This document shows, in pieces, positions 1,586 to 4,389 of a DNA stretch of 55,305 bases. A program made the translations under genes and the position numbers. The stretch comes from Patescibacteria group bacterium (GTDB lineage Bacteria; Patescibacteriota; Patescibacteriia; Patescibacteriales; UBA12465): contig JAQUWT010000007.1 of the NCBI GenBank assembly GCA_028692765.1, forward strand, positions 1-55,305. The letters are read 5' to 3'. The stretch's first letter is position 1, and every line of letters begins with the position of its first letter. Under the pieces are notes generated by a model. It did no database searches. It saw only the letters and a program-made list of their open reading frames with translations, and had not been told where the DNA came from.

Positions 1586-1867
1586 ATGTCAAAAATGACT
1601 AAGGCGCAAATCGTCGCCGCCATGTCTGAAGCCACTGGCTTAAGCAAGAAGGATGTCAACGGTTTCTTTGAAACCTTGTCCGAAATGACTTATAAAGAAG
1701 TCAAGAAGAGCGGAGAATGCTTAGTTCCTGGTTTCGGTAAATTGGTAAAGGCGAAGAGGAAAGCGCGCGAAGGCCGCAATCCGGCGACCGGTGAAACCAT
1801 TAAAATTCCGGCTAAGACCGTTGTCAAGTTCCGCTTGGCTAAGGCGGTTAAGGATGCCGTGTTATAA
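1586..1867 (+). CDS. hup: HU-family DNA-binding protein
   Basis: 93 aa, the usual HU length. The N-terminal helices (MTKAQIVAAMSEATGLSKKDV) and the GFGKLVKAKRKAREGRNPATGE segment match the HU/IHF fold, where RNPATGE marks the DNA-bending beta arm that grips the minor groove. It should coat and bend the nucleoid. The start is the ATG at 1586; a second in-frame ATG lies three codons later. It is transcribed alone from the promoter at 1374-1402 and ends at a terminator (1896-1928). There is no clear Shine-Dalgarno (CAAAGCGT precedes the start). One HU gene often suffices in reduced genomes. Confidence 0.97.
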   Translation: MSKMTKAQIVAAMSEATGLSKKDVNGFFETLSEMTYKEVKKSGECLVPGFGKLVKAKRKAREGRNPATGETIKIPAKTVVKFRLAKAVKDAVL

Positions 1868-1940: not shown

Positions 1941-2207
1941 TTATCTTTCTTTTTCTGGTGGCCAGTATTGGCCCAGGCCAAAGTCGCTTAATTTATTCTT
2001 CAGCTTAGTGTTGCGGTGCAGGTAAATTAAGAGGGAAGACAGCTCTATTTGGTAGCGGTTCTTGCTGATTTTAAATTTTAAGCCATCATGCTCGGCTTTG
2101 AGGGCGCGCCTAATCGTTTTATCCGTAACCCCGCCCAGTTTAGCCGCTTCTGATACAGACAGCCAGAGAGGATTTTTAACATGAAGATTATGGAGATAGC
2201 TAAGCAT
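1941..2207 (-). CDS. Small helix-turn-helix regulator (excisionase/MerR-like HTH)
   Basis: 88 aa. The segment LSVSEAAKLGGVTDKTIRRAL is a winged-helix/excisionase-like HTH, followed by a predicted wing (GLKFKISKNRYQI). The C-terminal 35 residues are basic and of unknown role. It stands alone on the reverse strand. The 100 bases upstream of its start hold two perfect inverted repeats of related sequence (2217-2244 and 2277-2308), which are good candidates for its own operators. A third copy of the same palindrome lies at 3355-3380. I infer an autoregulated local repressor; the regulated process is not evident. Confidence 0.75.
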   Translation of the reverse strand: MLSYLHNLHVKNPLWLSVSEAAKLGGVTDKTIRRALKAEHDGLKFKISKNRYQIELSSLLIYLHRNTKLKNKLSDFGLGQYWPPEKER

Positions 2208-2216
2208 TTTATTGAG

Positions 2217-2244
2217 TTTAAGTCTAAATATAGTTAGACTTAAA
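2217..2244. promoter_or_regulatory. Operator-like inverted repeat 1 (AGTCTA/TAGACT)
   Basis: TTTAAGTCTAA (2217-2227) and TTAGACTTAAA (2234-2244) are perfect 11-bp arms around a 6-bp spacer, directly upstream of the reverse-strand HTH gene. Confidence 0.7.
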
Positions 2245-2276
2245 TTGATTATTTATTTAATAAAAGCCTTATTTAT

Positions 2277-2308
2277 AATTTTAGTCTAATATATAATAGA
2301 CTAAAATT
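2277..2308. promoter_or_regulatory. Operator-like inverted repeat 2 (AGTCTA/TAGACT)
   Basis: AATTTTAGTCTA (2277-2288) and TAGACTAAAATT (2297-2308) are perfect 12-bp arms around an 8-bp spacer. The core AGTCTA/TAGACT is shared with the repeats at 2217 and 3355. No Rho-independent T-tract is attached, which favours a protein-binding site. Confidence 0.7.
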
Positions 2309-2533
2309 GTCTTATCTCTCTGATACTATCATTTAATAATAAAAAAGTCAATTGTGGCTGGCGGCGGTCTTTAGGGCCTTTTTCTAAGCTCTTGGGGGAA
2401 GATATTCTCGGTTTCAGCGTAGTATAAAAAGATGCTTTAGCAATAGGGAAAAGGCCATATTTCTGATTATACGCCCGCTTGGCTTTATTGGGATTAGAAT
2501 AGAAAATATAGCTTGAAAATTAGATTTTTCGGC
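2309..2533. other. AT-rich intergenic stretch, no gene seen
   Basis: Together with the operators this is part of a 415-bp gap between the HTH and sigma genes. I see no ORF or RNA signature. The word AGGGCCTT occurs twice (near 2374 and 2543), without obvious meaning. Confidence 0.5.
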
Positions 2534-2561
2534 TTGCTTTTTTAGGGCCTTGTGTTAGAAT
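2534..2561 (+). promoter_or_regulatory. Promoter for the ECF sigma factor gene
   Basis: TTGCTT (2534-2539), 16-bp spacer, TAGAAT (2556-2561) with TGTG just upstream. The distance to the ATG at 2623 is about 55 bases after the expected start site. Confidence 0.55.
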
Positions 2562-2622
2562 AAAAAGGTAAAATTTGTTTTAAGCTGAGAAGGGAAATAC
2601 TCCCTTATTTTTGATTATTATC

Positions 2623-3207
2623 ATGACCCCCCATATAGTAAAAAAATTTAAAGAGAAGCAATTGTTGCAGCAGTTGAAAAGCCAAGATAAGGAGGCCTTT
2701 ATCAAGGTCTATGATGAGTATGTTCAAGACATCTATCGCTTTGTCTATTTTAAAGTCGGTCGGGAAGAAGAGGCCCAGGATTTAACCTCAATGGTTTTTC
2801 TTAAAGCCTGGAATCATATTCAGACGAATTCTTTAAGCGACAGCCGGACCTTGCGCGCTCTTGTCTATAAAATTGCCCGTACCTCGATTATCGACTATTA
2901 CCGCGAGAGCGGCAATAAGCTGGAGGTTTCGCTCGATGATGAAGACAAGCCGATAGAAATCATGGATGAAAATCAAGACATGGCCGCCGATTTGGACCGT
3001 TCGGCTAACCTGGAATTAATCCGCCGCCAGTTGCCCTTGCTTAAAGAAGAATATCGCGAAGTCATCGTCTTGCGCTTCGTTAACGATTTGAACTTGGAAG
3101 AGATTGCGGCCGTTACCGGCAAGAGCCGGGGAAATGTCCGCGTTATCTTACACCGAGCTTTGGCTGCCTTAAAAGGCATGGTGGAAGAAGAAATGGGGAA
3201 AAAATAA
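2623..3207 (+). CDS. ECF-type RNA polymerase sigma factor
   Basis: 194 aa. Region 2 covers residues about 20-90: DKEAFIKVYDEYVQDIYRFVYFKVG, then EEEAQDLTSMVFLKAWNHI, the -10 recognition helix. Region 4 covers about 135-190 (LPLLKEEYREVIVLRFVNDL, then LEEIAAVTGKSRGNVRVILHRAL, the -35 HTH). This is the standard sigma-70 ECF layout. An upstream TTG at 2611 is in frame, but the ATG at 2623 is the natural start. The next gene, separated by a terminator, encodes a single-pass DUF5667 protein that may act as its partner. The target promoters are not visible here. Confidence 0.93.
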   Translation: MTPHIVKKFKEKQLLQQLKSQDKEAFIKVYDEYVQDIYRFVYFKVGREEEAQDLTSMVFLKAWNHIQTNSLSDSRTLRALVYKIARTSIIDYYRESGNKLEVSLDDEDKPIEIMDENQDMAADLDRSANLELIRRQLPLLKEEYREVIVLRFVNDLNLEEIAAVTGKSRGNVRVILHRALAALKGMVEEEMGKK

Positions 3208-3226
3208 CGTAAATAATTTTGTATAA

Positions 3227-3254
3227 AAATAAGCACCCCAAAGGGTGCTTATTT
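3227..3254 (+). terminator. Terminator after the sigma factor gene
   Basis: AAATAAGCACCC (3227-3238), loop CAAA, GGGTGCTTATTT (3243-3254): a perfect 12-bp stem. The T-run after it is interrupted, so efficiency is uncertain. Confidence 0.8.
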
Positions 3255-3354
3255 GTATATTTTTTTCGGAGCTCAACAGTCTTGACTATTATATTTTAGC
3301 ATGCCATTAAATTTTTGCAAATGTATTTATCCTATAAATAAGCTGAAATTTAAT

Positions 3355-3380
3355 ATAAGTCTAGATATTCCTAGACTTAT
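3355..3380. promoter_or_regulatory. Operator-like inverted repeat 3 (AAGTCTAG/CTAGACTT)
   Basis: ATAAGTCTAG (3355-3364) and CTAGACTTAT (3371-3380), perfect 10-bp arms with a 6-bp spacer. It shares the AAGTCTA/TAGACTT core with the repeats beside the HTH gene and lies about 95 bp upstream of the DUF5667 gene, suggesting control by the same regulator. Confidence 0.6.
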
Positions 3381-3472
3381 CTTTAATAAATCGGATAAAT
3401 GCCAATAAATATGGCCTTATTTGCTTTTCAGAGACTGTAACAATTTGGAAATTATTCCGTATATTATGGCGT

Positions 3473-4300
3473 ATGACCGATAATGATTTTTTGAAACAAT
3501 TGAAAGGCTTGAAAAATATCTCCCCGGAGGCCTCTTGGCTAAAGAGCAACCGGGAGATTTTGTTATCCCAAATCGCTAATTCCGGCGCTAAAGAATTAGC
3601 CCCCTATCGCCGCCTGCTTATCGATGTCCGCAGCTTTTTTGCCGTTGCTTCCCAGCCGGCTTTGGCGCTCGGTTCTTTCTTAGTATTATTGGTGGGCGTC
3701 AGCCTCTTCGGTCATTTAGCTTTTAGCCGCACCAAGCCGAACGAATCTTTATATATTGCCCGCATCATTTCCGAGAAGGCGAAATTGACCACCGTTTTTG
3801 ATTCCCAGGAAAGGGAAAAAATGGAAGTACAGTTTGCCGCCAGTCATGCCGAAGCCATTACCGAAGTTTTAGCCGGGACCGATGTTAATGATGAAGCGCA
3901 GGTTGCCAAACTCAATGATAGTTTTAATAAGGAATTAGCCACGGTCCGCACCAAGATTGCCGGCATTAAGAAAGGTGCTCAAGTGGCTCTTGCTCCGACT
4001 GAAGTCGCTCCCTTGGCGGAAGAAGACTTATTATTAACCGCCGGCGACGGCAAGGATGATGCTGGCATGCAGATTGCTTTGAATAATGGCACGGCCCTTG
4101 CCGCCCCTACCGCTTCGGTTTTAGAGGCGGATAAGGCTCCGGCTGAAGTTGCCACTCCGACTGAGGCGGTTACGGTAGCGGAGGAGTCTTCCTCTGATAA
4201 GGCGGAAGAAGCCTTGAACGAAGCCCAGAGTTTGTTTGAGAATAAAGAATATAGCGGCGCGCTTGATAAGCTTAAAGAAGTGAAGGAGATGATTAAATAA
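3473..4300 (+). CDS. DUF5667-domain single-pass membrane protein, possible anti-sigma partner
   Basis: 275 aa. The N-terminal 60 residues are cytoplasmic (FLKQLKGLKNISPEASWLKS) and are followed by one membrane segment at about 63-82 (ALALGSFLVLLVGVSLFGHL). Then comes the DUF5667-like motif NESLYIARIISEKAKL and a helical region (AEAITEVLAGTDVNDEAQVAKL). The C-terminus is an Ala/Pro/Glu-rich linker ending in a TPR-like helix pair (AEEALNEAQSLFENKEYSGAL). DUF5667 proteins often sit next to ECF sigma factors, as here, so an anti-sigma role is plausible but not shown. A TATTAT hexamer ends only 5 bases before the ATG, so the mRNA may be leaderless. Confidence 0.7.
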   Translation: MTDNDFLKQLKGLKNISPEASWLKSNREILLSQIANSGAKELAPYRRLLIDVRSFFAVASQPALALGSFLVLLVGVSLFGHLAFSRTKPNESLYIARIISEKAKLTTVFDSQEREKMEVQFAASHAEAITEVLAGTDVNDEAQVAKLNDSFNKELATVRTKIAGIKKGAQVALAPTEVAPLAEEDLLLTAGDGKDDAGMQIALNNGTALAAPTASVLEADKAPAEVATPTEAVTVAEESSSDKAEEALNEAQSLFENKEYSGALDKLKEVKEMIK

Positions 4301-4376: not shown

Positions 4377-4389
4377 GCTCTTCCGATCT
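4377..4389. other. Illumina-adapter-like string
   Basis: GCTCTTCCGATCT is identical to the 3' end of standard Illumina adapters. AGATCAGA at 4362-4369 resembles the start of the reverse-complement adapter (AGATCGGA, 7 of 8). This suggests an assembly artefact or chimeric join here, although a natural hairpin is possible. Confidence 0.6.

Follow-up and report, generated by a model that had tools for sequence, protein, structure and literature searches.

Which protein recognises the three perfect palindromes that lie around a small helix-turn-helix (HTH) gene of a Patescibacteria group bacterium, and which genes are controlled through them? The window, i.e., the whole 55,305-nt stretch of DNA analysed here, carries the gene for an 88-aa HTH protein (1941..2207, minus strand), an extracytoplasmic function (ECF) sigma factor gene (2623..3207, plus strand), and a gene for a membrane protein (3473..4300, plus strand). 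An earlier note had described this gene context, had labelled the membrane protein DUF5667, and had proposed that the HTH protein governs a three-site regulon consisting of itself and the sigma-linked membrane protein. The context stands; the DUF5667 label is weak. Overall, it is very probable that the 88-aa protein is an autoregulating winged-HTH repressor with a small regulon, comprising its own leader, the DUF5667-like gene, a structured RNA, and a trxB-like operon.

The coordinates and lengths reported for the three inverted repeats were borne out (arms of 11, 12, and 10 bp, with spacers of 6, 8, and 6). Predicted operator A (2217..2244, TTTAAGTCTAA-N6-TTAGACTTAAA) adjoins the HTH start codon on its 5′ side, and an equivalent start-codon-proximal site is present in most HTH orthologues. 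Predicted operator B (2277..2308, AATTTTAGTCTA-N8-TAGACTAAAATT) lies 62 bp from operator A, start to start, and predicted operator C (3355..3380, ATAAGTCTAG-N6-CTAGACTTAT) lies 5′ of the DUF5667-like gene; none of the three is assigned a strand. AGTCTA and TAGACT are indeed common to all of them, in a single register, AGTCTA-N8-TAGACT, and the register AGTCTA-N6-TAGACT showed no excess in the window. The exact matches in the window are the three reported repeats; with up to three mismatches allowed there are 21 matches, compared to 13.05 ± 3.52 in shuffled sequence, a count reached in 0 of 100 shuffles. The 880-kb genome contains four exact matches, the three in the window and a fourth on another contig (C2:43034). 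A palindrome with one mismatch at C6:43196 is intergenic, and no conserved counterpart of it was identified. In 39 family genomes, TWAGTCYA-N8-TRGACTWA occurred 93 times (summed over the per-genome table) and the reversed control 0 times; on these counts, the palindrome is not randomly scattered. Two of the sites (L098 and L105) lie within long ORFs and are probably chance matches. Flanking TT/AA, which was not part of the search pattern, is kept at 94–96% in 84 HTH-leader sites, indicating that the element reaches beyond the searched letters, with a half-site of approximately AYTTWAGTCYA.

The proposal that the regulator controls itself is strongly supported. The minus strand carries a predicted HTH promoter, TTGACT-N17-TAGTAT with an extended -10 (TGA), at 2323..2351; the start of operator B comes 20 nt past its -10 hexamer. 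The arrangement is repeated in relatives, many of which have TTGACT-N16-18-TAnnnT followed by the first site about 3–21 nt on. Of the 31 family orthologues, 28 have the palindrome 5′ of the gene, usually in two copies, and a wider set of HTH loci on named Falkowbacteria/Parcubacteria contigs has at least one leader copy at 39 of 44 loci and at least two at 34 of 44. Adjacent leader copies are most often 61–62 bp apart (13 of 49 pairs). Predicted operators lie at the promoter of the regulator's own gene and are conserved in relatives, as in autoregulated repressors. With its first copy just downstream of the predicted promoter, the layout is the usual one for an autorepressor, and judging from it the HTH protein appears to switch off its own gene via the palindrome; because the first site lies just after the -10 element, its occupancy would stop transcription at initiation or in early elongation. 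Some leaders depart from this pattern. The copy in G026 is a near-match whose spacer measures 9 nt, and genus g4 (G007, G008) has the HTH gene with no leader site, the site being present only at the DUF5667 gene. In a single lineage, site and protein co-vary: a divergent HTH orthologue (L210 of G018) is accompanied by AGTCAA-N8-TTGACT in three of its four operator copies.

The window protein matches HTH_17 weakly (PF12728; E 1.3e-4 and 22.6 bits, under the gathering cut-off of 27) over a region, 15–66, that covers nearly the whole profile, and HTH_17 was matched by 28 of 39 orthologues at E ≤ 0.01 (best E 5.7e-9). The MerR domain scored 15.6 bits, below its cut-off of 28.2, and the protein, only 88 aa long, is not assigned to the MerR family. 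In an AlphaFold2 model built with 39 sequences (pLDDT 86), a winged HTH is followed by two helices; the succession E15-17, H18-25, H29-37, E45-48, E51-55, H56-64 is that of the winged-HTH topology, and pLDDT is mostly about 90 there. The best Foldseek neighbours of the model include phage Xis and BldC chains (4j2n, 6ama), with TM-scores by target of 0.69–0.78, weak E-values (0.03–0.3, the best being 0.03), and about 20% identity. A PDB sequence search with the HTH profile yielded chance-like matches only, for the most part designed repeat proteins. The protein is like HTH_17/excisionase-type and MerR-like winged-HTH proteins (PF12728, TIGR01764, PF00376) in its HTH_17 alignment and winged-HTH topology, but its C-terminal part (KLKNK...GLGQY) is specific to the family, and a MerR effector domain is absent. 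Its size and fold resemble those of BldC, a single-domain MerR-like protein of Streptomyces, and of Xis from mycobacteriophage Pukovnik. BldC binds direct repeats, whereas the sites described here are symmetric palindromes. The window protein has no cysteines, which makes direct thiol sensing unlikely.

The sigma gene is divergent from the HTH gene and is co-located with it in the family. Its product has the Sigma70_r2 and r4_2 domains, scoring 44.3 bits for PF04542 (cut-off 24), 55.2 for PF08281 (25.7), and 90.1 for TIGR02937 (42.9), as expected of an ECF sigma factor. A predicted promoter, TTGCTT-N16-TAGAAT with a TG extension (2534..2561, plus strand), is similar in relatives, and no palindrome is present near it in the window. 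Right before the sigma start codon, at 2590-2606, a short GGGA/TCCC hairpin is followed by TTATTTTTG, and most relatives have similar leaders; single-sequence folding of this hairpin was not significant (z -0.9), and it possibly serves attenuation. The gene ends at a terminator-like hairpin (3222..3259, plus strand, z -5.8), beyond which lie site C and the DUF5667-like gene. The latter encodes a membrane protein with a short N-terminal stretch, one hydrophobic segment, and a long C-terminal part, a candidate partner of the sigma factor that matches DUF5667 (PF18915) with E 0.027 and 15.3 bits, below the gathering cut-off of 27. It is preceded by an ECF-type promoter, TGTAAC-N16-CGTAT (3436..3462, plus strand), which recurs family-wide as TGTAAC-N16/17-CGTATA and has two matches in the whole genome; the second, at C8:50662, was rejected as it has no convincing gene downstream. 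The sigma and DUF5667-like genes are adjacent in most genera and separated in the window's genus, in the window by the strong hairpin.

The -35 element of the DUF5667-like promoter is about 65 bp downstream of site C, which, being situated between the sigma terminator and this promoter, should act on DNA and not on RNA. In all six checkable genomes of the window's genus the palindrome is located about 95 nt 5′ of the DUF5667-like start, and it recurs in g4. Where 0.7–1.1 kb of extra DNA parts the DUF5667-like gene from the HTH and sigma genes (G010, G011), the palindrome stays with the DUF5667-like gene. This conservation despite insertions, together with the recurrence in a second genus, supports the suggestion that the HTH protein controls the sigma-linked membrane protein. 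Since the gene has both its own palindrome and a family-wide ECF-type promoter, the adjacent sigma factor probably drives it, with the HTH protein as a second input. The pair is like SigM/SigW-type systems (TIGR02937 superfamily; closest model TIGR02952, BldN family) in that a sigma gene stands beside a membrane-protein gene with an ECF-type promoter. Unlike in those systems, the partner has no recognised anti-sigma domain, only the weak DUF5667 match, and the circuit includes an HTH regulator as well.

The window does hold three sites, as the idea of a three-site regulon requires, but the list is not complete: the motif is also found at an RNA beside tRNA-Cys and ychF and, in relatives, at a trxB-like operon, and these two conserved places account for most sites away from the HTH locus. 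In 21 genomes, the interval from tRNA-Cys to ychF contains the palindrome. A conserved promoter (TTGAC/TTGC...TGCTATAAT) is found about 100–130 bp downstream of it, followed by a noncoding region of about 340–370 nt with a terminator at its end. In the window genome (G000), this structured noncoding RNA occupies L006:7167-7534, about 43.2–43.5 kb of contig C2, on the plus strand. RNAalifold together with an explicit pair count gave 33 pairs, 21 of them with changes on both sides; 94% of alignment cells were paired, compared to 83% in shuffles, and none of 500 shuffles attained the covariation score of 0.433 (0.226 in shuffles). The signal was abolished when the partners were slid, a comparison in which the structure is favoured over its slid versions, having been derived from the same alignment. 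With a model of the 3′ end, the RNA was found in 29 of 39 family genomes, nearly always in one copy. No Rfam family matched the locus at gathering score, and no credible sub-threshold match was seen; 6S RNA was rejected as an identity for the target, as the genome has no RF00013 match. In G027 the site and the RNA remain with tRNA-Cys while ychF is not adjacent, making the RNA a likelier target than ychF. The other conserved place is the operon of a pyridine-nucleotide-disulphide oxidoreductase (TrxB-like), which has a site 5′ of it in seven genomes and 5′ of its next gene in an eighth. At these non-HTH targets, the site is often 65–130 bp upstream of a recognisable promoter.

Several other features accompany the tRNA-Cys loci. 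At L006:6991-7023 and other tRNA-Cys loci, the operator has TGTGGATAACTTGTG, a sequence with a DnaA-box core, on its 5′ side in nearly every genome. On the 3′ side of the operator, CTAATATTAAATAA-like sequence is present at many RNA loci and, in several relatives, at the trxB operon. The terminator-like hairpin of tRNA-Cys (L006:6924-6964) is itself an operator match with one mismatch, and G020–G022 have operators and T-runs in this position; one element may serve both roles.

Of 39 family genomes (Candidatus Falkowbacteria), 31 have an HTH orthologue, one per genome, and a scan of named genomes gave 43 HTH loci, labelled mostly Candidatus Falkowbacteria or Parcubacteria/Patescibacteria. A recurrent gene order in the family is HU gene, HTH gene, palindromes, divergent ECF sigma gene, DUF5667-like gene, and S-layer-type gene. 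The HU-family DNA-binding protein of the window (1586..1867, plus strand; PF00216, E 2.5e-27) is encoded beside the HTH gene, on the side away from the sigma gene, and in most genomes an HU-family gene lies 0.3–3 kb from the HTH gene. The expectation that HTH gene and sites are conserved together held for 28 of 31 orthologues, but sites without the gene, a refuting case named in the note, do occur. The HTH gene was not found, even by profile search, in 8 of 39 family genomes, five of which keep sites (G024, G025, G031, G037, G038). All 8 also miss the sigma orthologue, having distant paralogues or nothing left, which suggests that the whole block was lost or unassembled; the S-layer-type orthologue is missing in seven of the 8 and in four of the five with sites. 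In G037, 857 nt separate the start of the S-layer-type gene from a contig end, at which the HTH block would be expected, so an assembly gap is likely there. For HTH-less genomes with sites, an assembly gap or block loss is as good an explanation as sites that are independent of the HTH gene.

These genomes bear directly on whether a different protein, present in every genome, binds the sites and has the HTH gene as one of its targets. Conserved sites in the five genomes without a detected HTH gene, the two genomes with the gene and no leader sites, and the conserved proximity of the HU-family gene would suit such a binder, be it the HU-family protein or some other regulator. HU-type proteins bind with little sequence specificity, however, and AGTC is fixed in the sites. 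Moreover, the HTH gene adjoins most sites and has the most copies, a classical mark of an autoregulator; the operator diverges along with the HTH protein in G018; and the HTH-less genomes are without the whole block, which in G037 ends at a contig edge with a possible assembly gap. Another binder is thus unlikely. Close to both the sigma gene and a predicted sigma target, the palindromes could also be promoter elements of the ECF sigma factor instead of repressor operators, a view that we regard as barely tenable: ECF promoters are not palindromic, and the separate, asymmetric TGTAAC-N16/17-CGTATA, present only twice in the genome, is highly conserved directly before the DUF5667-like gene family-wide.

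Function at the RNA level, as transcription terminators or leader hairpins, has in its favour the placement of operators A and B within the HTH leader, the near-match in the terminator-like hairpin with T-runs by tRNA-Cys of the window genome, and the copies with T-runs after tRNA-Cys in G020–G022. It is nevertheless very improbable, given that most sites have no T-run, that their arms are AT-rich, and that the gene's recognised promoter is downstream of site C and of most RNA-locus sites; the letters of the palindrome are fixed and do not co-vary, pointing to recognition of DNA sequence. An equally slim chance attaches to the RNA-locus palindrome being part of a replication-linked element with a DnaA-type box, with the HTH protein as a chromosome-organisation factor. 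The DnaA-box core that precedes the site in essentially every genome and the CTAATATTAAATAA-like sequence 3′ at many loci would fit this, but there is a single box and no cluster, and the HTH-leader and DUF5667 sites would be left unexplained. GC skew does not support the tRNA-Cys/ychF locus as a replication origin, either in G028, where the switch from negative to positive lies at about 735–745 kb and the locus at 790 kb, or on contig C2 of the window genome, where the locus is about 20 kb from the switch.

In the autorepressor reading, the 88-aa protein would be a small winged-HTH repressor, probably acting as a dimer on AYTTWAGTCYA-N8-TRGACTWAART; binding to the palindrome, dimerisation, and repression of its own promoter are what we infer from sequence. 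It would limit its own expression by binding two operators (sometimes three in relatives) in its leader, the first of them placed at the transcription start or just past it, and the 61–62 bp spacing, about six helical turns, would suit cooperative binding. Single operators would be bound upstream of the DUF5667-like gene, the structured RNA, and, in relatives, the TrxB-like operon. The adjacent sigma factor would probably have the DUF5667-like membrane protein, whose gene has its own ECF-type promoter, as its partner and target. A more tentative proposal, which we consider possible but short of probable, is that a Falkowbacteria-specific regulator makes one small circuit of three parts: a new class of structured regulatory RNA of about 340–370 nt, an ECF sigma/membrane pair beside an S-layer-type protein, and a thioredoxin-reductase operon. 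In bacteria with very few known regulators, such a circuit would be a switch for envelope or thiol stress.

Few regulons are described for Patescibacteria in the open-licence PMC literature, in which we found no paper linking Falkowbacteria to a sigma factor or transcription-factor motif. A LexA regulon in Patescibacteria was reportedly reconstructed by comparative genomics (work of Sanchez-Osuna et al. from 2017, reference 52 in PMC7739468). LexA-like autoregulated repressors share the logic proposed here, with operators at the repressor's own start and a small regulon drawn from comparative genomics; the 88-aa protein differs in having no LexA-type protease domain and a different regulon. 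The kind of system is familiar, while its members, operator, and RNA target appear undescribed in the open-licence PMC literature, and Rfam has no match for the covarying RNA among its targets. With its regulator, its defined operator, its candidate promoters, and a short list of targets common to dozens of species, the system can be tested in vitro, with no need for culturing.

Two further observations concern the surroundings of the HTH locus. In the single-contig genomes G028 (C1:255-256 kb) and G017 (C1:403 kb), the HTH/sigma/S-layer cluster lies near the switch in GC skew at the replication terminus. In the window, GCTCTTCCGATCT, expected 0 times in shuffles, is present at 4377-4389 in the noncoding DNA that separates the DUF5667-like gene from the S-layer-type gene; we take it to be the end of a common Illumina adapter, and an adapter remnant or misjoin is possible at this position.
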